Assembly: GCF_900230215.1 (NCBI RefSeq) | Contig: NZ_LT907982.1 | Span: 2,976,001-3,040,000, forward strand | Length of the DNA stretch: 64,000 nucleotides | Source of the DNA: Jatrophihabitans sp. GAS493 | GTDB lineage: Bacteria; Actinomycetota; Actinomycetes; Mycobacteriales; Jatrophihabitantaceae | Reading direction: 5' to 3' | In this document: piece by piece, positions 28,490 to 41,190 of the stretch | Numbering within the stretch: the stretch's first letter is position 1 | How the letters are laid out: each line of letters begins with the position of its first letter | The notes under the pieces: generated by a model | Database searches by the model: none | What the model was told of the DNA's origin: nothing | What the model saw: only the letters and a program-made list of their open reading frames with translations | Translations under genes and position numbers: made by a program

Positions 28490-30288
28490 GAAACGCACTG
28501 GCCCGGGTCATCTTCCAGGACGGGAAGGCAAACGCGGAATCCAGGGTCGGTTGTCTGGTGCGAGCCTTTGAGCGGGCTGACGTTGCCATCGAGACCGACC
28601 CGGCGATCACCGAAGACCTGATTGACAGCAAGCCGCAGAGTACAAAACTCGACACCGCTGCCTGCGACATCGTTGTCCTGTTCGCACCCGACCCGGCCAC
28701 CGAATGGCACCTGACGAAGCGGAGCCAAGGCGACGCGGTGACCCTGGTGGTGGCGACTCGGGCCGACCTGGACAACATCGCGGCCTATTACCTTCCGTTC
28801 AAGGACTCGGTGCACATCGCCGAACTGGCCCCGATGGCGCTCGATGCCGACGCGGCGGCGCAGATCGTCCGGACCTTGCTGACCGCCGTGTCGGCCCGCA
28901 ACGAGCCCAACGCAATCGACGATCACGAGATCCTCCCCGCGAACGTCGAGACCGCCGAGGATTACCACAGACGAATCAGCTGGGACCCCGAGGTCGAGGT
29001 CATGGCCGAGTTCCTGGCCGAGCTTCGCAGCGCGATCCGTCCGATGAAGGTTCCGGTGCCGCCGCTGCCGTGGGATCCAACCGACGCTGGTGATCAGGCC
29101 AGGACTCGACAACCCGACGGTAGCTGGACTCTCGAGCAGGCGAAGGTGACACCGGCGCCAATTGGTCTGACGGACCTGTTCTACGCCAACTCTCACGAAC
29201 GGGCGCGGAGTGCCTTCGGCTTCTACCCGTGGTCGGGTGAAACCAAGACCGCGCTGAGTAGGTTCGGCAAGCCGCCGCACCTACTGCTGACCGGCGATAG
29301 CGGCACCGGCAAGACCATGATCGCCTCCTTCATCCGGCGAGTACTGCAAGACGACGCCACTCATTCGAGCGGCTACTACGCGAACTTCGGGTCGGCCGAT
29401 GACACCGTCCCGGAGATGCCCTTTGTTGTGGTCAACTGCGCCTCGTTGACATTCGCCAACGTGGTTCACCTTCTGCATGGATCTGACCCGACGACGTGGT
29501 CGGAAGCGATTCTGGTTGGCGACTTCGTGCGCGGCTCCTACGGCGTCATCTTCTTCGATGAGCTGGGTGATCTGACGTACGACGTGCAGCGCAGCCTGCT
29601 CATGTTCCTTGAAGACCGCGTTGTCCGGCCGCACGGGATGAGTCCGTTTCCGAGCTTTGCCCGGATCGTGGCGGCGACGAACCGGGACTTGACTGCGATG
29701 GTTCGGCGGGGCGAGTTCCGTCACGACCTGCTGGCGCGCTTTGCTCGGCAAGTTGAGGTCCCGTCCCTCGCGCGACGGGGTGAGCGGGACCGCCAACGCC
29801 TGGCGCTGTACGCGGCGGCCAACCCCAGTGTGAACAAGAATGACGCGCAGACGAGCAGCCGGCCGGTCAGCCATATCTCGGACGCCGCGATGAAGCGTCT
29901 CGGCGAGTACGACTACCCAGATGGCAACTACCGCGATCTCGAGGCAACGGTGCATCGCGCCATCGAGAGCGCGATGCGTAGGGGATCGCGGGTCATCGGG
30001 CTGGAGGATGTTCGATTGCCGGGTGCGGAGTTCACCAGTGAGCGGGCGAGGCTGGTCGTGGACTTGGCGCCGGACGCGGAAGTCTCGGGTCGGTCGGTCG
30101 CGGTGGCCAGGCCGGAAGAGCTCGAACGGCTTGCTGTCGCCACGGGCCGACCCATGCTGCGGGAAGCGGCGACGGGCAGTCTTTATTTACCTGACGGCGA
30201 CATCGTGTACGCCTGGAAGGGTGGCCGGGCAACCGGTGAGTCAGGATCAGCGATGGGCGATACCGGCGATGAGGGTGCCGGCAAGTAG
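28486..30288 (+). CDS. Enhancer-binding-protein-type AAA+ activator
   Basis: 600 residues. The AAA+ core is of the sigma-54 activator kind: Walker A GDSGTGKT (270-277), VVNCASL, Walker B GVIFFDELGDL (353-363), sensor I ARIVAATNRDL, arginine-finger region RHDLLARF, and sensor II GNYRDLEATVHRAI. The position of the sigma-54-contacting GAFTGA loop instead reads SDPTTWSEA, so it likely contacts a non-standard sigma factor. There is no Fis-type HTH at the C-terminus, unlike most such activators. The first ~135 residues form an alpha/beta domain of unknown type, presumably the sensor. GTG at 28486 overlaps the sigma-like gene stop. The 3' end overlaps the convergent TPR-trypsin gene by 42 bp. Confidence 0.85.
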   Translation: MRNALARVIFQDGKANAESRVGCLVRAFERADVAIETDPAITEDLIDSKPQSTKLDTAACDIVVLFAPDPATEWHLTKRSQGDAVTLVVATRADLDNIAAYYLPFKDSVHIAELAPMALDADAAAQIVRTLLTAVSARNEPNAIDDHEILPANVETAEDYHRRISWDPEVEVMAEFLAELRSAIRPMKVPVPPLPWDPTDAGDQARTRQPDGSWTLEQAKVTPAPIGLTDLFYANSHERARSAFGFYPWSGETKTALSRFGKPPHLLLTGDSGTGKTMIASFIRRVLQDDATHSSGYYANFGSADDTVPEMPFVVVNCASLTFANVVHLLHGSDPTTWSEAILVGDFVRGSYGVIFFDELGDLTYDVQRSLLMFLEDRVVRPHGMSPFPSFARIVAATNRDLTAMVRRGEFRHDLLARFARQVEVPSLARRGERDRQRLALYAAANPSVNKNDAQTSSRPVSHISDAAMKRLGEYDYPDGNYRDLEATVHRAIESAMRRGSRVIGLEDVRLPGAEFTSERARLVVDLAPDAEVSGRSVAVARPEELERLAVATGRPMLREAATGSLYLPDGDIVYAWKGGRATGESGSAMGDTGDEGAGK

Positions 30289-31770
30289 GGCCAGCCCGCC
30301 ACCGGCTTCGCTCGGCTTTCCGCCCAGCTGTACGGCGATGAGTTGCCAACGGTCGTTGAAAACCGGTGCGCCGCGGAGTGCACGCTCGAGGTAGTGAGCG
30401 CCGAACGTTACATGAGGTTGGCCGGCCACACCTTCGGCGCCGAGGAGTGCGCCTTGGTTGTCGCGGACTGTCACCGGCGAATCCGCGAAACTGATGGCAA
30501 ATACCTCAGCTCCCGCTAACGGGGCATCGGCGCAGATCGGCGCGGTCTCCACGCCCCGCGCAAGCGGTTGCGCAACCGGCAGGCAGGCGATGTCGAGATC
30601 GAATCGAGGCGAGAACCACTCCGGTTTGGTGTCAATCGGGATCGGGGTACCGGCGACGGATGCGATGGCCGAAATGGTCCGCGCCCGACGGAATTCGGTG
30701 TCGGGAGTGATGATAACGACGGCCGAACCGAGGCCCAAGTCGCCGCCGGACACAAGGACGCCCGCCCAAACGCTGCCATCATCGGATCGCATGGTCACGA
30801 CGGCTCGCTCGGCCGTCGTTCGCGCTGGATCGGTATAGAAGCCATCTGATGTCGATGGGACCGCGTCCACGACACTGCCATTGAGGCGTGTGAGCGTATT
30901 CCGGAGTGGTTCGAGGATCGTTGCTTGATCGGCAACGGCGCTGTCGAACCGAAGGACCTCAGTCAGTTGGCGAACGGTGCTGTTGTATTCGAACGCATCG
31001 GCCCCCTTGATCTGTCCGGCCGCACCGAGATACCTCTCGAGCCAGGTAGCGGCCTCGTCAAAATCGTCGAGCAGCAACGAGGCCTCCATGGCCGAGGCAT
31101 ACGCCCACATATCCCGGGCTTCATTCGCATTGACAATCGACAAGACTTGGCGCGCGTCGTCCTGCGCCGAGCGGGCAGAAATGTTTTCCGGGAGGGCGAC
31201 CTTGTCGGCCACACTGCGCGCCTTGAGGGTGGCGACGTTGATCAGGGGGTAATGGTCGGTCGGGTCAGCTTGGTAAGCGGCCGAATAGAGCTCGATCGCA
31301 TCGACGAGTAGCGATGGGTTCGAATCGTCCTCGATGTAGCCCTGTTTCGCTATGCGCGCCCGAAGGGCAAGCACCCGGGGATTCGTCGAATGGTCGTCGA
31401 AGTACTTGTCCATGGCGCGGCTGGCGCCGTCGAAGTCGCCTTGATCAATGAGGCTTTGCACGTAGATCCGCACCAACGACTCCGCTGGTGCGGTGCCCTG
31501 TCCCCGGGACGCGGATTCGACGGAGTTGAAGAGGCTACGGACTTCCTTGTGCTTCAGCTTGCGCTGAAGCAGGACCAGTCCTGCGCGCGCGTGGTCTTTC
31601 GACAAGAAGTCGGGCTCAGTTCGAATGCAGTCCCGAAGATCGCGGACCAGGCGGTCGGCATCAGCGAGCCGAACATCGTTGAGCGCTTCGCGCAGGGCAT
31701 CGGTTTGGTCATCCGTCCACCTGCGCGCGCCCGGCATCTCGGCGCTGGCTGCGTTCTTGGCTTTAGCCAT
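30247..31770 (-). CDS. TRAFs-binding/TPR-S protein with degenerate trypsin-like domain
   Basis: 507 residues. The first ~300 are helical repeats; LVDAIELYSAAYQADPTDHY and YPLINVATLKA (about 155-184) are typical of the TRAFs-binding (DUF4071/TPR-S) domain. Residues ~320-507 look like a trypsin-fold domain: DLDIACLP keeps the catalytic Asp (about 391-393), but the His motif reads VIITPDTEF and the Ser motif reads LRGAPVFN (Ala at 468), so it is probably an inactive protease. TPR-S domains occur with TIR, SLOG and protease domains in nucleotide-signalling conflict systems. The ATG at 31770 overlaps the upstream gene end by 8 nt. It is convergent with and overlaps the activator gene. Confidence 0.75.
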   Translation of the reverse strand: MAKAKNAASAEMPGARRWTDDQTDALREALNDVRLADADRLVRDLRDCIRTEPDFLSKDHARAGLVLLQRKLKHKEVRSLFNSVESASRGQGTAPAESLVRIYVQSLIDQGDFDGASRAMDKYFDDHSTNPRVLALRARIAKQGYIEDDSNPSLLVDAIELYSAAYQADPTDHYPLINVATLKARSVADKVALPENISARSAQDDARQVLSIVNANEARDMWAYASAMEASLLLDDFDEAATWLERYLGAAGQIKGADAFEYNSTVRQLTEVLRFDSAVADQATILEPLRNTLTRLNGSVVDAVPSTSDGFYTDPARTTAERAVVTMRSDDGSVWAGVLVSGGDLGLGSAVVIITPDTEFRRARTISAIASVAGTPIPIDTKPEWFSPRFDLDIACLPVAQPLARGVETAPICADAPLAGAEVFAISFADSPVTVRDNQGALLGAEGVAGQPHVTFGAHYLERALRGAPVFNDRWQLIAVQLGGKPSEAGGGLALLAGTLIAGIAHR

Positions 31771-33196
31771 CGGTCGTGGCCCCCAGACTGAGACCGGTCT
31801 TGCCAAACGAGTTGCCGAGGTCGTGGCGCTTCTCGCGATACGCCCCGGAAAACCCGAGTTCGAATCCGATTCGATCTTCGATCTCTCGTTGGACCTCGTT
31901 GGCGGGGGGCCAAATCGCGACTCGGAATGTGTTCGACGCTGACTCCCGGTAGGGCACGACGAGATGTCGTTCGCCGGCCGGCGAACCGGCCAGGGCGGTG
32001 GCGATCCTGAATACCGTCAGCAGGCGTTGAGCGGGGCCGAGCGCATCATCGGCCTCAACCCCGTAACGGTCGAGGTCGTCCTTGAGCGATACGAGCGAGG
32101 CCGACGTCGGCGTCGCTGGCGCGAAGGATCGATCGGTGGGGGGAGTCTGATCGTCCGACGATGTCCAGCTCGGCGCATGGGTGACCAGCAGCTTGATCCA
32201 TGGGGCGTGATCGTCACCTCGGGTCGCGGTTTCAAGATCACCGTCGTTGAGTTCGCTCAGCCAGGCGGCGGCAGCGAGTCGGTAGAGGTCATCGGCCGCG
32301 CCCGTTCCGTTGGGTTCGGCACCGGGCGGCCGAAAAGCTCCATGAGTCAGGGCGACGGCGCGATCAAGGTTGGCGGCGCGATCGGTGGCGCCGGTCGGTG
32401 TTGCCACCTCACCGCGCGCGACGCGACGGAGCAGCCTGCTCAGCTGCTGCGCAAGAATGAGTTCGCCGGCCGCCGCAAGACGCGCCGCGCAGAGCGAGAA
32501 GAGCTCACCCGATCCGGCGTGCCGTCGGGCCAGAAGCTCATCGAGAGCCGCGGTCGGAGCGATCGCGCCTGCGGCGGTGGGGCGTACAAAGAGGTCGATC
32601 TCAGCGGACGGGCGGGGAGTGTTCTGCGACGATGCGTCGGCCGTCAAGCCTCCGCTGTGCGTCGACAGCGTCTCAGCCACAGCGGAAAGAACACGCTGCC
32701 GGCTCGGAATCAGATGGTCCTCCGACCAAGCGGAAGGCCTGGCGTTGATGATCGGTACACCGAAAACGCGAGCCAAGATGTACAACGACGATGCAATGGC
32801 ACCGTTCGGATCGACTTCGCTGTTCACCGCGATGAATTCGTCGTCGTCAGAACTGAAAAATGATGCGCTCCTTGAGCCGAGCTCGGAGCGCCAGCCATCG
32901 TCGGGGAGCGGGTAGGGGGTGATGACGACGGAGCGCAGGCCTGAAGCCCACGGCTCACGTCCCGCTCGGGCGGCCTCATCGAGACTGTCGACGCGGGCCT
33001 GCTCGAGTGGGTTCGCCCGGCGGTAGAACAGGACGACCTCCAGATGAACGGCCTGTTCTCCCGCGAGTTCGAGCGCGGGCTGCACCTCAGGAGGCGTGGC
33101 GCTGGCAGCGGGGCCAGCGGTCGGGGTCAAGAACACCGGGGAAAGCAGGCGGATGCTGACCGGCGCCGGCGATTGATCCGCCAAGTGTTCCCCCAA
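31763..33196 (-). CDS. Protein of unknown function between SLOG-SprT and TPR-S genes
   Basis: Up to 477 residues with strong coding bias. An N-terminal alpha/beta part (VHLEVVLFYRR near 50, SVVITPYPLPDDGW, EFIAVNSEVDP, VFGVPIINARP) is followed by a helical, Ala-rich middle and a C-terminal segment HLVVPYRESASNTFRVAIWPP. The frame opens at a TTG (33196); a second TTG at 33184 has a better spaced GGGGG and may be the true start. It overlaps the TPR-S gene by 8 nt and follows the SLOG-SprT gene by 75 bp, so it likely works with both. No family recognised. Confidence 0.6.
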   Translation of the reverse strand: MGEHLADQSPAPVSIRLLSPVFLTPTAGPAASATPPEVQPALELAGEQAVHLEVVLFYRRANPLEQARVDSLDEAARAGREPWASGLRSVVITPYPLPDDGWRSELGSRSASFFSSDDDEFIAVNSEVDPNGAIASSLYILARVFGVPIINARPSAWSEDHLIPSRQRVLSAVAETLSTHSGGLTADASSQNTPRPSAEIDLFVRPTAAGAIAPTAALDELLARRHAGSGELFSLCAARLAAAGELILAQQLSRLLRRVARGEVATPTGATDRAANLDRAVALTHGAFRPPGAEPNGTGAADDLYRLAAAAWLSELNDGDLETATRGDDHAPWIKLLVTHAPSWTSSDDQTPPTDRSFAPATPTSASLVSLKDDLDRYGVEADDALGPAQRLLTVFRIATALAGSPAGERHLVVPYRESASNTFRVAIWPPANEVQREIEDRIGFELGFSGAYREKRHDLGNSFGKTGLSLGATTDG

Positions 33197-33271: not shown

Positions 33272-34294
33272 TTATTCCGTGGCGCCGTGATAGCGCGCCT
33301 CACCATCACCGCCGAGCAGAATGCACAGTTGCCGCCAGGCTCGGTCATGGCCATGACGACCGCCGACGATCGCGTGGGCGACCTCGTGCGCGACAGTCCT
33401 GAGGCTGTCTTCAAATGGAATCGCATCGATGTAGGCGCGGGAGAAGTGCAACGTCTTGGTCTGGTGGTTGCACGAGCCCAAGGTGCGCCGGGCATCACCA
33501 AACTTGATCTTCCATGACAGCTGGCCGGTTTCGTCGGTAAGGCCGTGCTCGGCGAGCGTCTCTTCGCAGAACTGCCTGACCGCAACCTCACGGGCAGTGG
33601 GGCGAACCGATGCGGGGGGACGCTGCGAAGTGAGAGCCGACCGGAGCGCCTGGCGCTGACTCGCGATGGAGGAGCGGACTTCCAGCAAGAGAATGGCCGC
33701 GGGCCAGGGCGGCTGCGCTGCCAGGTCGTCCGCCGTTCTCCCGGTGCCAACCGCGAGGACGATCGAACGTCCGGCCGTGATGCTGTGTTCGACGTCGACC
33801 TTGGTGATGGCGCCGCCGTTGATGACGAGCGTGGCCGACGGCTGATCGCCCGCCCAGAGGCCGACTACTTCCGATAGCCACGGTGACTCATCGCCCCACC
33901 CGTTGCCGGGGACGAGAATCTGCAGCGAGTGGTTCGGGTCCAGGCGTTCTTCGGCCGCGCCGGGCGTGGTGCTGACGAGCGACGCGACGGCCACCCCCAC
34001 CAGGGGGAATCGGGCGTTTGCACGTGCACGTGCGGCGCCGATCGCGCGCATGACGCCGCTATCGGTCCCGCCGTCCACTATGCACGCGCCGAGTTCTTCG
34101 GCGATCGGGACGACGACGTCGGTGGCGAGGGCGAGCGCGCGGGCTTCTTCTTCGGCCGACATGCCACCGGCCCCGCCGACGATCGCGAGTACCGGACCGT
34201 CGGTTCGCCGCACCGCGATGTTGCGCGCCAGCTCGGCGTGGTCGCTGATGACGACGATCTCAGCCAGCGCAGTCTCCAGACGTCCGGTTATCAA
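33272..34294 (-). CDS. SLOG (LSDAT-type) domain fused to SprT-like metalloprotease
   Basis: 340 residues in two parts. Residues ~35-205 show a SLOG/LSDAT-type Rossmann fold: LAIVGGAGGM (36-45), IVDGGTDSGVMRAIG (72-86), LVINGGA (156-162), VGTGRTADDL (182-191); these domains bind nucleotide-derived ligands. Residues ~235-330 are SprT-like: FGDARRTLGSC then HEVAHAIVGGRHGHDRAW, with His303, Glu304, His307 and a third His (314 or 316) as zinc ligands. A ligand-sensing domain fused to a protease suggests signal-triggered cleavage. The start is a TTG with TAGGCT 6 nt upstream, the arrangement of a leaderless transcript. It heads the three-gene set running toward the polymerase operon. Confidence 0.8.
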   Translation of the reverse strand: MITGRLETALAEIVVISDHAELARNIAVRRTDGPVLAIVGGAGGMSAEEEARALALATDVVVPIAEELGACIVDGGTDSGVMRAIGAARARANARFPLVGVAVASLVSTTPGAAEERLDPNHSLQILVPGNGWGDESPWLSEVVGLWAGDQPSATLVINGGAITKVDVEHSITAGRSIVLAVGTGRTADDLAAQPPWPAAILLLEVRSSIASQRQALRSALTSQRPPASVRPTAREVAVRQFCEETLAEHGLTDETGQLSWKIKFGDARRTLGSCNHQTKTLHFSRAYIDAIPFEDSLRTVAHEVAHAIVGGRHGHDRAWRQLCILLGGDGEARYHGATE

Positions 34295-34553: not shown

Positions 34554-34688
34554 TTACCGGGCCTCGTTGCCCGAGCCCCTGCAGCGCGAGCACTTGCCCC
34601 AGTTGCAGGCGCAGCTGCTCATCCTCTGGATGCTGCCTTTGCAGGCGGGGCATTTGCCCGAGCCGCGGCAGACGACGCACTTGGCCAT
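34554..34688 (-). CDS. DnaJ-type zinc-finger microprotein, 44 aa
   Basis: ATG with GAGGAGG upstream. The 44 residues carry CVVCRGSGKCPACKGS then CACNWGKCSRCRGSG: repeated CxxCxGxG units like the zinc domain of DnaJ or the CxxCxG proteins, with eight or more Cys available. Probably a zinc-ribbon module that binds a protein partner. It lies between a 24-aa membrane peptide and the 37-aa Cys-rich peptide. Confidence 0.65.
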   Translation of the reverse strand: MAKCVVCRGSGKCPACKGSIQRMSSCACNWGKCSRCRGSGNEAR

Positions 34689-34749
34689 GTCAGTCACCTC
34701 CTCGCGTAGCTTTTTCAGGACGAATGGGCTGAGCCGGAAACGCGCCGCG

Positions 34750-34838: not shown

Positions 34839-35570
34839 CTAGTAGTCCCAGCGAGCGATCTCGATGTAGGCCGCGGGGAGCCCCGCCGCCCGGCGCTCGT
34901 TGATCGGAACCGCTCCGATCAGTACGGGGTCGGTTCCGAGTCCGCTGGCCAGGACGGCCGCGAGCAGGAACGGGGCCGCGGCCACCGTCAGCGCCGCTGC
35001 TCCGGCGGTGAGCATCGCGACGCGCGACGCGGTGTTGGCGAGGCCGGCCTGCCGGCGCGCGTCTGCCGTCGCCCGGATCTCTTGCGGAACGCTGCTCAGT
35101 AACGTTGCGCCGACAGCGTCAGGCTGACCGGCGAACGACCGGCCGTCGAACGAACCGCTCCGGCGCAGCTTGCCCTTCGGCACCTCGTGCGCGACGTACA
35201 TGACGGGAAAGTCGTAGACCTTCCCCGCCACCGACAGGGCCTTGCGCGCGGACTCCGGCATCGGCAGGTTGCCGCGCTCACGCAGGACGGGATCGAGGCC
35301 GGCGGGCACGAGGACCCAGTCCGACTTCGGGCCGCAGAAGCCGCGGACACCCGGGTCGAGGGTCGATACGCCGACCAGCCGCCAGTTCTGGCCGTGCGAC
35401 TTCGCCGCGGCGATGATCCCATCGGCGCGGGCCACCAGCAGGTCGGCGAGCGGGAGCGGACGCGCTTTGACTGACGATCGCGAGAGTGGTGACCCGGTGG
35501 GCCGGGATTGTGGCTCGCCGGTCGCCATCAGCGCCGGCGACGGGCGGGGAAGAACGAATGGAGCGGTCAT
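34839..35570 (-). CDS. Membrane-associated protein of unknown function
   Basis: 243 residues; ATG with GAAGGGA upstream. The first 45 residues are Pro/Ser-rich. The middle part (SDWVLVPAGLDP, DFPVMYVAHEVPKGKL) looks like a small alpha/beta domain. One long hydrophobic stretch of about 30 residues (VAMLTAGAAALTVAAAPFLL) sits near 185-215, enough for one or two membrane passes. It is followed by PVLIGAVPINERRA and an aromatic C-terminus. Family not recognised. Part of the minus-strand run 36572-34391. Confidence 0.6.
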   Translation of the reverse strand: MTAPFVLPRPSPALMATGEPQSRPTGSPLSRSSVKARPLPLADLLVARADGIIAAAKSHGQNWRLVGVSTLDPGVRGFCGPKSDWVLVPAGLDPVLRERGNLPMPESARKALSVAGKVYDFPVMYVAHEVPKGKLRRSGSFDGRSFAGQPDAVGATLLSSVPQEIRATADARRQAGLANTASRVAMLTAGAAALTVAAAPFLLAAVLASGLGTDPVLIGAVPINERRAAGLPAAYIEIARWDY

Positions 35571-36101: not shown

Positions 36102-36572
36102 TCAGCCGGACATGCTCGCGAAAATGACCCACATGATGAAGCAGGCAAACGCCGCGCACAGCAGGCCGAACGCGATGTAGGCCGCCACGACGAGTGCGGG
36201 CGGGACGAGTGCGACCGAGCAGAGGACACCGCCGGCGGGTGTGACGGCGTGCGTCCAGGCCGGACCTTCACGAAAGCCCTGAGTCGCCACACAGAGCACG
36301 AGCATCACGCCAACGGCACCGGCCGCGACCAGGAAGGCCGGCATCGGATGGCCCCACCAGGTGATGAAGTTGTGCGAGTAGCGGCTGACCCAGCCGGCGC
36401 CGGGGCTCGCGTACCACGGGTGAAAGGTCAGGTACCCGTAGAGGCCGCCGACCAGCATGGCCACGCCGAGGGCGATCCAGGCGAACAGGCGGGTGTCGTC
36501 GCCGAAGCGGATCGGCAGGTGCTCCTGGGCCGCGGCCTTCGGAGCGAGTTCGGATGCACTGAGTGCGCCCAT
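36102..36572 (-). CDS. Four-TM membrane protein
   Basis: 156 residues; ATG with AAGGAGA upstream. Four hydrophobic segments are evident: LFAWIALGVAMLVGGLYGYL, MPAFLVAAGAVGVMLVLCV, GGVLCSVALVPPALVVAAYI and AFGLLCAAFACFIMWVIFA. A His/Trp-rich loop (FHPWYAS, WVSRYSHNFITWWGHP) lies between the first two. It begins a run of membrane-related genes after a terminator and tandem 18-bp repeats. Function unknown. Confidence 0.65.
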   Translation of the reverse strand: MGALSASELAPKAAAQEHLPIRFGDDTRLFAWIALGVAMLVGGLYGYLTFHPWYASPGAGWVSRYSHNFITWWGHPMPAFLVAAGAVGVMLVLCVATQGFREGPAWTHAVTPAGGVLCSVALVPPALVVAAYIAFGLLCAAFACFIMWVIFASMSG

Positions 36573-36687: not shown

Positions 36688-37134
36688 CTACGCGGCGTTC
36701 TCGGTCGCCTCGGCGATCCCGAGCAGCGTCAGCTCGGTATTGAACTCGGCCACGGCGCTGATGATCATCGAGATCGCCCGCGGCAGGACCGCGGCCAGGT
36801 GGTCCGAGGTCGGCAAGCAGTCGCGGCCGGCGACAACCATCTGCACCGTGACGACGAAGAAGTCATCAGCGGGCGCGAACAGCTTGGCGCCGACCATGTT
36901 TCGGTTGACGGTCGCGATGGTGGCATCGAGCGCCGGCTTCGGTAGATCGGTCTTGAACGAGGTGTAGATCCGGAGCACCTCGGGATCGCTCGGTGCCGTG
37001 TTGACGACACACAACCGAAGACCGTTGTCGAGGGTGGCGTGGACGTCGCCGTCTTGCTCGGCTACTGCGGACACGCCGAGCTTGTCGTTGAAGACCTCGA
37101 CGTACCGGGTTGCGAACTTGGTCGGATCACACAT
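36688..37134 (-). CDS. YbjN-like (type III chaperone fold) protein
   Basis: 148 residues. The pattern of a short helix, strands with LRLCVVNTAP and EVLRIYTSF, then a long helix LDATIATVNRNMVGAKLF, a strand FFVVTVQMVV and a final helix AISMIISAVAEFNTEL is that of the YbjN/Tir-chaperone-like fold, which usually binds and holds another protein. The ATG overlaps the end of the 53-aa ORF by 8 nt and has GAAGGGAG upstream, so both are read from promoter element 4. It is followed by a terminator. Confidence 0.6.
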   Translation of the reverse strand: MCDPTKFATRYVEVFNDKLGVSAVAEQDGDVHATLDNGLRLCVVNTAPSDPEVLRIYTSFKTDLPKPALDATIATVNRNMVGAKLFAPADDFFVVTVQMVVAGRDCLPTSDHLAAVLPRAISMIISAVAEFNTELTLLGIAEATENAA

Positions 37135-37288
37135 TGCGGGTACTCCCTTCGAGAATGCGGGCGCGGTACATGGGAGGGGTGGGAAGGCAGCTGGTCTCGT
37201 CGAGCCGGAATCCGCCGTCCGCGTCTTCCGACGCGTGGTGCATGGGCGGGAGCGCCGGCTCGTAGGCCGACGGCTTGGTGGTGGTCAT
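37127..37288 (-). CDS. Short ORF, 53 aa, first gene after promoter element 4
   Basis: ATG overlapping the stop of the ClpB-like gene (ATGA), with AGGAGA upstream. The peptide starts MTTTKPSAYEPALPPMHHA, is acidic in the middle (SEDADGGFRLDE) and has a single Cys (ETSCLPTPPMYRARILEG). It precedes a YbjN-like chaperone-fold gene and follows AAA+ and E1-type genes, so it could be a small substrate or adaptor; that is a guess. A single 15-bp promoter element lies 53 bp upstream inside the previous gene. Confidence 0.55.
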   Translation of the reverse strand: MTTTKPSAYEPALPPMHHASEDADGGFRLDETSCLPTPPMYRARILEGSTRNV

Positions 37289-38619
37289 GGCTTCTCCTGT
37301 GCATTCGTTGGTGACCCGGCGGTCGGGTCACCTGGTACTAGGCAAGACGCGTCCGAAGTCGGCGCGGCAGTGGCGTCCGTCCGGGCCGAAGGCGCGACTT
37401 GCGGGTCGGCTCCGATTACCCGGACGGTCGTGCCGGCGGCCTGGGCGGCTAACTGCGCCCCGAGCTGGGCGTCGATGAGGTACTCCAGGGCGCGCACCCC
37501 GATGGTGCTGTGCCGGGTGTCGTTCAGAACGCGCCTCAGGTACGCCGGGTCGATCTCGCTGACCGACAGGCCATAGTCGGCCGCCACCCGCGCGACGCTC
37601 CGCGCGGCGACTTCGGCGCGCTGCCGGCCGGTGAGCGGAGTGAACCCGCACATGTGGCGGAAGCGCCCGACGACCTCCGGGCGCGTACCGCGCTCGATCA
37701 GGGCTCGCCGGGCCATCTCCTCCTGGTCGCCGCCGGGCGCGACCGCCAGGTTGGATGTGAACAGCAGCACCGATCGGGTCGCCGGGCGCCCCGTGTCGCT
37801 GCTGCCGAGCCGGCCCGCGTCCATCAGATTCATCAGCGCGGTGAGCACGTCGGGGTGCGCCTTGTCGATCTCGTCGAACACGACGACGCACCGCGGGTTG
37901 GCGGCGAGTTCCGAGGCGAGTGACGTGCCTTCGCCGTGCCCGACATACCCCGGAGGCGCACCGTGGAGGCGGGCAACCGCGTGGCGTTCGCTGTATTCGT
38001 TCATGTCGTATCGAAGCGAGCGCCACGTTTCGCCGCTCAACGCAGTGAGCGAGGTCGCCAGCCGCTCGCCGACGAGCGTCTTGCCGGTGCCCGTCGGGCC
38101 GTAGAGCAGGATCGACACCGGTCGTCGTGGACGCATCTTGGCTGTGTGGTGGGCGACGGTCGTTGCGATGACGTTGACCGCCTCGGCTTGGCCGACGACC
38201 TCCTCGCGGATGGCCGCCTCAAGCTCCGGGGCGCTGACCGGGCGCGTCGCGTCCTCGGACTCCGCTTCGACGGCGTCGAGGTCGACCGTCGGGTAGCGGA
38301 CCGCCGTGGGTGCGGCGGCGCGGGCAACCTTCGGCTCGGGCAGCTTGGAACTGAGCCATTCGATCGCGGTGTCGAGGTCGCTGAACGCATGCGTGCCGGC
38401 GGTGACCCAGGCGTGGACCTCAGCGTCGAGCCCGACGTAGCGGACCTTGCGGTCGACCTGCAGCAGGACGGTGGTGCCGTTATCCTCGACCCCGATCCGA
38501 CCTGCCCTCGGCACGCAGCCGGTGGGCAGTGGGTGGTTGCGGTATTCGACGCAGCACGAGGCTGCGCGCTCGCGCAGCCGGGCGCGCTCGGCCGAATCAA
38601 GCGCGGTAATGGCGGTCAT
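37285..38619 (-). CDS. ClpB/ClpX-type AAA+ unfoldase
   Basis: 444 residues with one AAA+ module of the Clp/Hsp100 D2 type. Motifs: EEVVGQAEAVNVIA, Walker A GPTGTGKT (about 174-181), an aromatic pore loop HGAPPGYVGHGEG (about 219-231), Walker B VVVFDEIDKAH (about 245-255) and sensor I VLLFTSNLA. The C-terminal small domain (HSTIGVRALEYLIDAQLG) is also Clp-like. The ~120 N-terminal residues replace the usual Clp_N and first AAA modules; no ClpP-binding loop is recognised. It should unfold or remodel proteins. Genes upstream encode JAB-E1 and a small partner, suggesting modified proteins as substrates. Promoter element 4 lies inside its 3' end. Confidence 0.85.
   Translation of the reverse strand: MTAITALDSAERARLRERAASCCVEYRNHPLPTGCVPRAGRIGVEDNGTTVLLQVDRKVRYVGLDAEVHAWVTAGTHAFSDLDTAIEWLSSKLPEPKVARAAAPTAVRYPTVDLDAVEAESEDATRPVSAPELEAAIREEVVGQAEAVNVIATTVAHHTAKMRPRRPVSILLYGPTGTGKTLVGERLATSLTALSGETWRSLRYDMNEYSERHAVARLHGAPPGYVGHGEGTSLASELAANPRCVVVFDEIDKAHPDVLTALMNLMDAGRLGSSDTGRPATRSVLLFTSNLAVAPGGDQEEMARRALIERGTRPEVVGRFRHMCGFTPLTGRQRAEVAARSVARVAADYGLSVSEIDPAYLRRVLNDTRHSTIGVRALEYLIDAQLGAQLAAQAAGTTVRVIGADPQVAPSARTDATAAPTSDASCLVPGDPTAGSPTNAQEKP
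37341..37355 (-). promoter_or_regulatory. Sigma-54-like -24/-12 promoter element, copy 4
   Basis: Minus strand CGGACGCGTCTTGCCT, inside the 3' end of the ClpB-like gene and 53 bp before the ATG of the 53-aa ORF. In the gene frame it encodes SDASCL. Confidence 0.7.
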
Positions 38620-38644
38620 ATCTCTCCTTCTTGTTGAGGTCGGG

Positions 38645-38674
38645 GCGAACGGTCCGCTTACGCGGACCGTTCGC
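38645..38674 (-). terminator. Hairpin spanning the JAB-E1 stop codon
   Basis: Perfect 13-bp arms GCGAACGGTCCGC (38645-38657) and its complement (38662-38674) with a 4-nt loop containing the TAA stop. It could terminate or partly attenuate transcription between the JAB-E1 and ClpB-like genes. Confidence 0.6.
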
Positions 38675-40247
38675 TGATGACCGACGTGGGCAGGACGCGG
38701 GTATCCCCGAGTCGGCCGACGCAGTCGGACAGGTCGCCGGTGCCGCCGCAGTCGGGGCAGGTCGGGTAGCCGTTGCTGTCGGGCCGGTCCGGCTTCTGCG
38801 GGCGGTAGAGCGCGAGGTCGGCCGCCAGGACGCCGGCGGTCGACTCCGCCACGGCCGTCTCGAATAGCTTCAGGCCGAGCGTCGTACCGATCTCGGTGTC
38901 GAGGCCGATGAGGATCAGGTTGCGCTCCGCCACGGCGTCGAGGAACGCGTCCACCCGCGGCACCGAAGGGTGGTTCACGTCGCGGACGCGCGACAGCCTC
39001 GTCAGCAGCCCGATCGCCAGCTGGTGCTTCGCCGCGTTCAGGCGCGCCGTCGCGTAGAACGGGGTGCCGTGCGAGCTGACCGTGTTGCGGTAACCCTGCT
39101 CCAGGTAGCTGCGGTAGCGCCCGGCCGTGGCACAGCGGATGCAGGCCGGCGTGATGCCCGGTGCGCTGAAGGTGATCTCGACGCCGCGGCCCTGGTGATA
39201 GACGAGTCCCCCGAGTACCGCCACGCCGAGTTCTAGGCCGAGTCGGCTCACCCGCGCCTGCGTGTAGAAGTCGTCGGTGAACGCGCAGAGCAGGGTGCTG
39301 GTGGGAACGTGGACGTCCGGGCCGGGGAGCGAGCCGAAGACGAGGCGGCGCATGGCGGCGTCGGTGATCGTGTCGTCGAGGCCGGCCCGGATGGTCCAGA
39401 CGCGGGCGAAGGGCGAGACATCGGTGATCGCCTTGGCGGTCGCGTCCACCTTGGCCATGCCGATCTCGGACCGGTACACGTGCTGGGTCGCGATGTTCGG
39501 GTAGGCGACGACGTCGGGATCGATCAGCACGAACTCACCGACGCCGCAGCGCGCCATCTCTTCGAGGAAGCCGCGGCTGCCGCCGCAGCCGACCGCGACG
39601 ATCCGGGCCCCCGCCAGGGCCGCCAGGTCGTACGCATCCCGGACCCGGTCGAACTCTAGGAAGCGGGTCGGGTCGACGGGGTCACGCGCCGGGAGGACCG
39701 TGCCGTCGAGTTGCTCCAGCCCCTTGTCGCGGGTCACGGCGTAGCCGTGCATGGTGAAGTGCCCGGTGTCGGGGATCGTTTGGGCGATCGGCATGAGGAA
39801 GCGGTCGAGCTCCGGGATGCCGTCCATGATCTGCTGCGCGTAGCGCAGGTCCTGACCGGACGGGCGCCGGCTACCGGCCGGGTGGCTGTGGACGAAGCCC
39901 AGCAGGTTGATGTTCGCCGGATTCCAGTCCTCGCGCAGCAACCGGTTGAGGAAGAGGTGGTCCGGGTAGTACGTGGCTCCGGTGGTGGCTGCGGTCGTGT
40001 CGAAGTGATACTCGGTGACGGTGCCCGACCCGCGGACGCCGCCGAACATGCCACCGGACTCCGCGCGCTGCGAGCCGACAGTGCGCATTATCTCGTGGGA
40101 GACCGAGGTCGTCATGACGAGCGGCGCGGGCGCCTTGAGCTCGGCGGGTGGGATCGCGATGATGCGGTGCGTGTTGAGCGCTATGGCGTGCGCCGTGGCG
40201 CCGGCGAGATCAGCGAGCGTGGTGGCGATGGTGCGGATGATCTTCAT
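38658..40247 (-). CDS. JAB (JAMM) protease fused to ThiF/E1-like domain
   Basis: 529 residues. N-terminal JAMM domain: Glu63 (RAESGGMFGG), then H120-S-H122-P with Ser130 and Asp133 in the exact JAMM spacing. The E1/ThiF domain begins near 214 (IVAVGCGGSRG), with LIDPD (Asp243, Asp245). Two zinc pairs, CIRC (369-372) and CPDC (497-500), bracket the C-terminal part. JAB and E1 domains handle ubiquitin-like proteins or peptide C-termini: one cleaves, the other adenylates. No ubiquitin-fold gene is evident, so the substrate may be one of the short ORFs nearby. The ATG overlaps the stop of the 144-aa gene by one base (TAATG). Confidence 0.85.
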   Translation of the reverse strand: MKIIRTIATTLADLAGATAHAIALNTHRIIAIPPAELKAPAPLVMTTSVSHEIMRTVGSQRAESGGMFGGVRGSGTVTEYHFDTTAATTGATYYPDHLFLNRLLREDWNPANINLLGFVHSHPAGSRRPSGQDLRYAQQIMDGIPELDRFLMPIAQTIPDTGHFTMHGYAVTRDKGLEQLDGTVLPARDPVDPTRFLEFDRVRDAYDLAALAGARIVAVGCGGSRGFLEEMARCGVGEFVLIDPDVVAYPNIATQHVYRSEIGMAKVDATAKAITDVSPFARVWTIRAGLDDTITDAAMRRLVFGSLPGPDVHVPTSTLLCAFTDDFYTQARVSRLGLELGVAVLGGLVYHQGRGVEITFSAPGITPACIRCATAGRYRSYLEQGYRNTVSSHGTPFYATARLNAAKHQLAIGLLTRLSRVRDVNHPSVPRVDAFLDAVAERNLILIGLDTEIGTTLGLKLFETAVAESTAGVLAADLALYRPQKPDRPDSNGYPTCPDCGGTGDLSDCVGRLGDTRVLPTSVISERSA

Positions 40248-40681
40248 TAGTTGCTCCCGAAGAATCGGCGCAGGACACCCCGGCGGGGCATCGCTGCATT
40301 GGGTTGGTTGACGTTGCTTCTGGGCGGTGTTGCGCCGCCGGCGCCCCAGTTGGCTGAGGACGACCAGTCGAAGACCTTCGATTGGTCGTAGCCCGGCGGC
40401 GGGCGGAAGGTGCCGGTCTTGATGTAGTGCTGGGTGCAGTCCGACCACTGCGCGGCAACGCCTTTGGCGGCGTCGAGCGTGGGGATGGGTCGGTCCCAGC
40501 AGATGTATAGGCCCCGGGCGTCCGACAGGCGGTGCACGATGGCGGGTGACGATGACCGGGACCCGTAACCGGGTTGATTGACGATGTAGATGCGCCAGTC
40601 ACCGTTGATGTGGACGAAGTCGAACGTGTAATCGACGTGGTCGAACGTTCGGTACTTCGTGCGCTTGATTTCTGTTGTCAT
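40247..40681 (-). CDS. Small protein coupled to JAB-E1, possible E2-like partner
   Basis: 144 residues; ATG with GAGGAGAGGA upstream. The conserved-looking core is HINGDWRIYIVNQPGYG, YICWDRPIPTLDAAKGVAA and WSDCTQHYIKTGTF, with two Cys (in ICW and SDC). Its place directly before JAB-E1 is where an E2-type conjugation factor or an adaptor is found in bacterial ubiquitin-like operons, but I cannot identify the E2 fold by eye. The tail is disordered and basic. The frame is open further upstream through a 9-bp repeat as Gly-Pro-Arg repeats, but the strong ribosome binding site favours this start. Confidence 0.6.
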   Translation of the reverse strand: MTTEIKRTKYRTFDHVDYTFDFVHINGDWRIYIVNQPGYGSRSSSPAIVHRLSDARGLYICWDRPIPTLDAAKGVAAQWSDCTQHYIKTGTFRPPPGYDQSKVFDWSSSANWGAGGATPPRSNVNQPNAAMPRRGVLRRFFGSN

Positions 40682-40687
40682 GTCCTC

Positions 40688-40750
40688 TCCTCGTGGTCCT
40701 CGTGGTCCTCGTGGTCCTCGTGGTCCTCGTGGTCCTCGTGGTCCTCGGGG
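40688..40750 (-). repeat. Six-copy 9-bp tandem repeat in a leader
   Basis: Six perfect copies of TCCTCGTGG (plus strand) from 40688 to 40741, then one variant. On the minus strand each unit carries GAGGA, a Shine-Dalgarno-like core, and the array ends a few bases before the ribosome binding site and ATG of the 144-aa gene. Copy number could vary by slippage. Confidence 0.85.
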
Positions 40751-40793
40751 GTTGGGGTGCCACCCGGCCTCGGCGCGGGTGGCACCCTCTTCA

Positions 40794-40886
40794 TCACCGG
40801 TCGGCGTGGAAGCCACCGGCCGGGATCTCGTCCCCGCCGTGGAAACCGCCCGCGGGGATCTCGTCCCCACCGAAGGTGCGCGTCAT
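40794..40886 (-). CDS. 30-aa peptide with two copies of GGDEIPAGGFH
   Basis: ATG preceded by AGGAGGTGATGAC, one of the strongest ribosome binding sites in the window. The peptide is MTRTF, two exact tandem copies of GGDEIPAGGFH, then ADR. Exact internal repetition plus a strong start signal in front of E2-candidate and JAB-E1 genes suggests a translated small substrate, for example one whose repeat ends are modified or cleaved. It lies directly after a terminator, so it is the first ORF of that transcript. Not related to any peptide family I know. Confidence 0.6.
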   Translation of the reverse strand: MTRTFGGDEIPAGGFHGGDEIPAGGFHADR

Positions 40887-40923
40887 GTCATCACCTCCTT
40901 CTCGTGTCGATGTGTGGATGACA

Positions 40924-40963
40924 AAGGGCCCGTCCATCTCCTGTTGGAGGTGGACGGGCCCTT
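40924..40963 (-). terminator. Strong hairpin terminator after the 70-aa gene
   Basis: 18-bp arms AAGGGCCCGTCCATCTCC and its near-complement (one G-T pair) around a 4-nt loop, followed on the minus strand by TTTGT. Ends the transcript from promoter element 5, or attenuates it before the 30-aa ORF. Confidence 0.75.
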
Positions 40964-40977
40964 CGGTTCGATGTGGT

Positions 40978-41190
40978 CTAGCGGGCCTTGCGGTCGTAGA
41001 CGACCTTGCCGTCGCGCTTGACGGTGTGGCCGTGACCGGCCCCGTCCGGCTTGCCGCGGCCGCCCGAATAGACGTCGGTCTTGGAGCCGTACGTGCGGAT
41101 CTTGGTCTTCTGACCGTCGCTGGTGCGCCCGTAGGTCTCCAACTTGCCGCTGCGTGTGAGCTTGTTGCCGCCAGTGCTGCGCATGCCCAT
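40978..41190 (-). CDS. 70-aa basic, Gly/Thr-rich protein
   Basis: ATG with GGAAGGGGG upstream; the longer frame would start inside the promoter region. The sequence is repetitive in short strands (RTYGSKTDVYSGG, RGKPDGAGHGHTVKRDGKVV), which looks like a small all-beta nucleic-acid or protein-binding module. It is the only gene between promoter element 5 and the terminator at 40924-40963, so it can be expressed alone at high level. Family unknown. Confidence 0.65.
   Translation of the reverse strand: MGMRSTGGNKLTRSGKLETYGRTSDGQKTKIRTYGSKTDVYSGGRGKPDGAGHGHTVKRDGKVVYDRKAR

Follow-up and report, generated by a model that had tools for sequence, protein, structure and literature searches.

A Jatrophihabitans operon coupling a JAB-E1 fusion and E2 proteins to a short repeat peptide, a candidate modifier

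Where one operon holds an E1, an E2 and a JAMM protease, a carboxyl-terminal acyl donor is normally to be expected; the tails of ubiquitin and Urm1 are LRGG and LHGG. We describe an operon of this composition in a window of 64,000 nucleotides (the whole stretch of DNA analysed; Jatrophihabitans sp. GAS493, contig NZ_LT907982.1, positions 2,976,001 to 3,040,000 of the forward strand), where the candidate donor is a peptide built of 11-residue repeats. Among the closest described systems, Bub operons contain an E2. The title of Gong et al. 2025, as cited in PMC13373217, links them to bacterial ubiquitin-like proteins (Ubls). The polyUbl operons of Iyer, Burroughs and Aravind hold a JAB-E1 fusion, an E2 and a tandem-repeat Ubl beside or fused to the E2, and their UBC protein was described as inactive (PMC11354881). 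Cap2 of CBASS conjugates cGAS, which is without a beta-grasp fold, through its C-terminal Gly/Ala (PMC10097602), so a non-ubiquitin donor has precedent.

The JAB-E1 layout is already known from polyUbl operons (PMC11354881) and probably also from Citrobacter BubCD in the PDB (9ea4/9ea5). In BubCD the E1 occupies the C-terminal half of one chain, as here, at an E1 match of only E 2e-4; a JAB domain ahead of it, also as here, is judged from the BubCD name and a D104A mutant entry. The window operon has the JAB-E1 fusion in common with Bub operons, but no beta-grasp protein was found in it and the repeat peptide stands in that place. It likewise has the polyUbl layout, with a unit of 11 residues rather than a beta-grasp domain and with an E2 that keeps its Cys. 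Type II CBASS (Cap2/Cap3) and E2-only CBASS have the same E1/E2/JAB logic and a non-beta-grasp donor, and the nearest solved fold to the first E2 of the window (E2a) is a CBASS E2; here, however, the E1 is fused to JAB instead of E2 and has no catalytic Cys, and no CD-NTase lies beside E1/E2/JAB among the operon proteins scanned. MccB, MoeB and ThiF have in common with the window E1 the ATP-binding residues, the MoeB-type zinc CxxC pairs and the lack of a conserved catalytic Cys, whereas the window E1 is JAB-fused and E2-paired. Bil (BilABCD) has an E1 catalytic Cys domain and a two-domain Ubl, BilA, neither of which was found here. We found no published account of a conserved short repeat peptide replacing a Ubl; the main Bub papers lay outside the literature covered, and novelty is claimed provisionally.

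Our favoured reading, held tentatively, is a conjugation-type module (E1, E2, JAMM isopeptidase and Clp-like unfoldase) whose modifier or dedicated substrate is the short repeat peptide and not a beta-grasp ubiquitin. Its stricter form, for which we have less confidence, is ubiquitin-like conjugation by a modifier of ∼11 residues, encoded in tandem, released at FxGG junctions and without a beta-grasp body. The genes form a tightly packed minus-strand series, from ∼41190 to 34554 by ORF (open reading frame) calls in the window. Starting from the 30-aa ORF for the peptide, their order is E2a, JAB-E1, AAA+ ATPase, 53-aa ORF, 148-aa protein, transmembrane (TM) protein, second E2 (E2b), 243-aa protein and 47-aa ORF. 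All ORFs that the original prediction had named in this enzyme module are present, but the operon does not end where it had been made to end: it runs on downstream to ∼34554 through the TM protein, the membrane-anchored E2b, the 243-aa protein and the Cys-rich 47-aa ORF, a downstream part that includes proteins conserved in Actinobacteria bacterium IMCC26256. Upstream, a strong hairpin parts a 70-aa ORF from the 30-aa ORF, so the former may fall outside the operon. The one-base coupling of JAB-E1 to the 144-aa ORF is seen as a TAATG overlap of E2a stop and JAB-E1 start, and the 30-, 53- and 70-aa ORFs do have the Shine-Dalgarno-like sequences ascribed to them.

Relatives were sought at several depths. 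Genomes of the same order gave essentially generic ThiF proteins only, at low identity. A phylum-wide search led to the IMCC26256 locus, where E2, JAB, E1, a TM protein and a 185-aa relative of the window 243-aa protein (E 8e-8) are neighbours, and JAB-profile searches added one acidimicrobiian and one Streptomyces. A scan of 85,000 species genomes yielded 35 loci, including Micropruina (L071), a Burkholderiales metagenome-assembled genome (MAG; L072), Eisenbacteria (L073), planctomycetes (a Phycisphaerales MAG, L075, and further L147 and L076), Streptomyces, Catenulispora, Nonomuraea, Anaeromyxobacter, Niallia, Thermoflexus and others; contig ends truncate L073, L074 and L138. Plasmid searches found no relatives. 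Nor did the first viral scans; the third yielded one locus (L070) and the fifth two weak matches, to E1 only.

The 30-aa ORF has a near-perfect Shine-Dalgarno sequence (AGAAGGAGGTGATGAC-ATG) and encodes a peptide of repeated 11-residue units, two in the window copy. As a tblastn query it retrieved a three-unit relative in Burkholderiales (MQHLMTMKNTNSLRSIPTSRTPFGGDQIPPGSFRGGDQIPPGTFRGGDQIPPGTFR; E 2e-7, 38.5 bits) and a two-unit relative just upstream of E2 in Phycisphaerales (...HRGGRIPPGSFFGGDELPPGTFHGAS...; E 1e-5, 33.5 bits), both scoring above the maxima of 1000 repeat-preserving shuffles (30.0 bits) and 1000 full shuffles (26.6 bits). Three further peptides were assigned by motif, without a significant E-value: a 23-aa Micropruina ORF of two units with a strong Shine-Dalgarno sequence (MGIPAGTFEGAEEKKEIPSGTFH, then stop), and two-copy ORFs directly upstream of E2 in L147 (MFKRSSNASVIAEGTFSGGEIEPGSFHCG...) and, less clearly and with a GTG start, in L076. 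The two window units differ at five nucleotides, 5:0 synonymous (P 0.0002 under random single-base changes), and Burkholderiales units 2 and 3 at three, all synonymous; the peptide is therefore under selection as a protein. The junctions of the free peptides read GGFHGG, SFRGG, TFRGG, SFFGG and TFSGG, and their F-x-G-G (FHGG, FRGG, FFGG, FSGG) resembles the ubiquitin and Urm1 tails, LRGG and LHGG. It had been proposed that one of the tiny ORFs may be the substrate of the enzymes. The 30-aa ORF, conserved across phyla, is their likely partner; the 53- and 70-aa ORFs had no convincing relatives by tblastn and were set aside.

Some other occurrences of the motif were noted. In Burkholderiales an otherwise unrelated 138-aa protein (L072 9423-9839) has it at the C-terminus, ending GDMVPPGNFYIR. 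The peptide pattern had 25 matches in IMG/VR, none with a repeated PxGxF core, which we judged to be chance, and the same holds for one more peptide-like match within the host genome, at E 1.0 only.

The JAB-E1 fusion in one protein was confirmed by Pfam, with ThiF at E 1.8e-12 and Prok-JAB at E 5e-7, both above cut-off. The protein is 47% identical to that of Micropruina, 42% to that of Eisenbacteria and 36% to that of Burkholderiales. Its JAMM motif, E...HSHP(x)nSxxD, is complete, and its residues E64, H121, H123, S131 and D134 do not vary among the four JAB-E1 proteins that are closest. The E1 half is a Rossmann ThiF domain of the ThiF/MoeB superfamily with the Gly-rich loop and the Asp, Asn, Lys and Asp for ATP; Gly223, Asp244, Asn252, Lys267, Asp326 and Gln331 (ATP-binding) are invariant in 31 E1 domains, as are four zinc Cys (Cys370, 373, 498 and 501). 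No other Cys column reaches 30% among these 31, so there is no catalytic Cys of the kind conserved in canonical thioester-forming E1s. This absence fits a pathway of the type that makes ribosomally synthesized and post-translationally modified peptides (RiPPs), in which the 30-aa peptide would be a multi-core precursor that the E1 adenylates, JAB the maturation protease and the product a small modified peptide. MccB adenylates the microcin C7 peptide, the E1 has both MccB and PaaA among its PDB matches, and the cores are in tandem. We nonetheless think a RiPP-like pathway improbable: it leaves two E2s with an invariant Cys without a role, no exporter is seen in the operon, and the motif is fused to E2 in most loci.

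The suggestion that the 144-aa ORF might be an E2 is borne out by a Cys, a His and a Trp (Cys61, His50 and Trp79 in E2a) that are invariant in 22 relatives, and by predicted structures that match UBC/UEV folds. Homologs of E2a were found by tblastn in Micropruina (E 8e-28) and Burkholderiales (E 6e-15). For the model of the Thermoflexus E2 (L101, residues 64-183), all 50 listed VIA-align rows are UBC/UEV, at Z 9.2 to 6.7. The AlphaFold model of window E2a has block means of 92-96 in pLDDT (predicted local distance difference test) over residues 11-90; its best VIA-align match is the CBASS CdnG-associated E2 8hsb_B, at a Z of 7.2 that by itself could be chance, with several other E2s at Z ∼4. 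By Foldseek alone, neither E2 model had a significant match in the PDB. We assign the fold on the VIA-align rows together with the family pattern and a weak sequence match to a ubiquitin-conjugating enzyme (E 0.004). The E2s are covered by no model of Pfam or NCBIfam, and E2a has no pairwise similarity to the IMCC26256 E2, to which it is linked through the family alignment only. Burkholderiales has three E2 paralogs, one TM-anchored like window E2b and one without the Cys. The third paralog (L072 9089-9358), with its catalytic Cys replaced (QYFVDRQP), is a UEV-like pseudo-E2.

A related core, [VI][PHQT]xx[TIRK]F, lies N-terminal to E2 in 25 other loci of Actinobacteria, Firmicutes (Niallia) and a Thermoflexus MAG, with 29 copies at 1-3 per locus; a good number of these genomes are relatives and not independent. 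In long open frames from these loci the loose core has a background of ∼0.009 per 100 aa. The core is nearly always fused to the E2 N-terminus, in two or three tandem copies in L084, L087 and L092; in L079 it ends a separate 99-aa ORF (SEVPQTTFAA, then stop) that overlaps the E2 start. The conserved block stops two residues past the Phe, with Ala at F+1 in 24/29 copies and Ala/Ser/Gly at F+2 in 24/29, and is variable beyond.

This arrangement is the ground for the best rival, that [IV]PxGTF is a docking motif which binds JAB/E1 and recruits the E2 in cis. The free repeat peptides would then be multivalent scaffolds or competitors, and the true modifier something else, e.g. a host protein. Ubc12 offers a parallel, since its N-terminal peptide binds the NEDD8 E1. 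Most loci have the motif in cis, where the E2 begins, and it was seen as well in zinc-finger mini-proteins of Micropruina and at the C-terminus of the Burkholderiales 138-aa protein; multiple copies fit avidity. Docking would leave unexplained the FxGG junctions and the separate tiny genes that encode little but repeats, and no further candidate for the modifier was seen to recur in the loci. We consider it rather unlikely, if less so than the other alternatives. Were the motif for docking only, it would still define a Pfam-unmatched E2 family with a common short linear motif in several phyla, as well as a bacterial E1-E2-JAB system that is genetically compact.

For the peptide as modifier, we infer the following cycle. 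JAB would trim the precursor at FxGG (or FAA) junctions; the E1, without a catalytic Cys, would adenylate the freed C-terminus; and the Cys of the E2 would accept the activated peptide and hand it to a target. JAB could reverse the conjugation, and the AAA+ ATPase might remodel tagged proteins. Trimming, adenylation and transfer are favoured because of the FxGG-like tails, the Cap2 precedent and the polyUbl-like layout, and the repeat peptide is the one recurrent acyl-donor candidate in the loci. Should the peptide be the modifier, an E1-E2-JAB cycle can do without the beta-grasp body and needs only the tail, which would bear on the origin of ubiquitin conjugation and on the engineering of minimal protein tags.

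Several observations weigh against a peptide modifier. In the window peptide the final unit closes with FHADR and not with Gly, and the E2-fused forms end FAA, not FxGG. The motif is not always C-terminal, since in Micropruina it also lies inside two zinc-finger mini-proteins (IPKGTFH, IPAGTFH) and in Phycisphaerales inside an 84-aa protein; three Anaeromyxobacter loci, L070 and L105 showed no copy of it. In the window and the three relatives nearest to it, Thr takes the place of the Arg in the E1 NxxR motif (residue 255), a replacement that may weaken ATP use. Among the loci read, finally, only the window and Burkholderiales have the AAA+ ATPase.

That ATPase had been called ClpB-like, and it does match AAA_2 (E 2.6e-30), with Walker A/B as in Clp/Hsp100 proteins and with ClpA/ClpB (C-terminal half) as the nearest NCBIfam models; Pfam and NCBIfam show no second AAA module. 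With its Burkholderiales counterpart (L072 11670-13079; E 2e-73) it shares 35% identity over 446 aa, private N-terminal domain included.

A more conventional alternative is a Bub- or polyUbl-type operon with a Ubl gene at another place, or with a Ubl too divergent to recognise, e.g. the 243-aa protein. The JAB-E1 layout is as inferred for the solved Citrobacter BubCD and as in polyUbl operons (PMC11354881), and the 243-aa protein is conserved in IMCC26256. As first reported, though, no ubiquitin fold is visible: a sequence-level Pfam search of ten cluster proteins at E up to 1 gave no match to one. The 243-aa protein was not convincingly found in other relatives, whereas the peptide motif recurs. 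A Ubl gene as the conserved partner, named beforehand as what would overturn a tiny-ORF substrate, was not found in the loci read, where the recurrent extra element is the peptide motif. We regard a hidden Ubl as quite unlikely.

The features of the operon are collected in the table. The chaperone named in the original prediction survives as a weak YbjN match, below the Pfam cut-off.

Table. Features of the peptide, E2 and JAB-E1 cluster in window coordinates
Feature	Position	Strand	Basis
70-aa ORF, probably a separate transcription unit	40978..41190	-	ORF call; no relatives found; hairpin
14-bp RNA hairpin between 70-aa and 30-aa ORFs	40923..40964	-	minimum free energy of region -44.8 kcal/mol, z -5.9
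30-aa repeat peptide, MTRTFGGDEIPAGGFHGGDEIPAGGFHADR	40794..40886	-	tblastn relatives, shuffle test, synonymous repeat differences
E2a, 144-aa UBC-like protein	40247..40681	-	homologs, family residues, AlphaFold model
JAB (JAMM) deubiquitinase-type domain fused to ThiF/E1 adenylation domain	38658..40250, ATG at 40247	-	Pfam, alignments, homologs
AAA+ unfoldase, ClpA/ClpB C-terminal module with private N-terminal domain	37285..38619	-	Pfam/NCBIfam, L072 homolog
53-aa ORF overlapping AAA+ stop	37127..37288	-	ORF call; no relatives found
148-aa YbjN-like (type III chaperone-like) protein, weak assignment	36688..37134	-	Pfam YbjN E 0.032, below cut-off
156-aa multi-TM protein	36102..36572	-	homolog in L059/L084 (IMCC26256), E 1e-4
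E2b, second E2, N-terminal TM segment	35605..36084	-	39% identity to E2a over aligned part
243-aa protein, fold not recognised	34839..35570	-	IMCC26256 homolog, E 8e-8 to L059 11272-11829
47-aa Cys-rich (zinc-ribbon-like) protein	34554..34697	-	ORF call; weak tblastn matches only

Neighbouring genes were recorded at several loci. The Burkholderiales cluster (L072 5999-8100) begins ∼150 bp past a CRISPR array of 22 repeats at ∼66-bp spacing, and cas2 adjoins. Large serine recombinases lie close to planctomycete clusters (L074 5083-6897, L075 14446-16350, L076 6679-8247), which suggests that these clusters are mobile modules. In Streptomyces loci, e.g. L078 3089-4366, the E2 gene overlaps at its start with a gene for a Ser/Thr protein kinase. 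In the window itself, an LSDAT_prok (SLOG) domain fused to a SprT-like metalloprotease is encoded next to the operon (33272-34294, minus strand), and at 30247-31806, likewise minus strand, a TPR-S domain together with a weak match to the Trypsin_2 protease forms an architecture like that of conflict systems.

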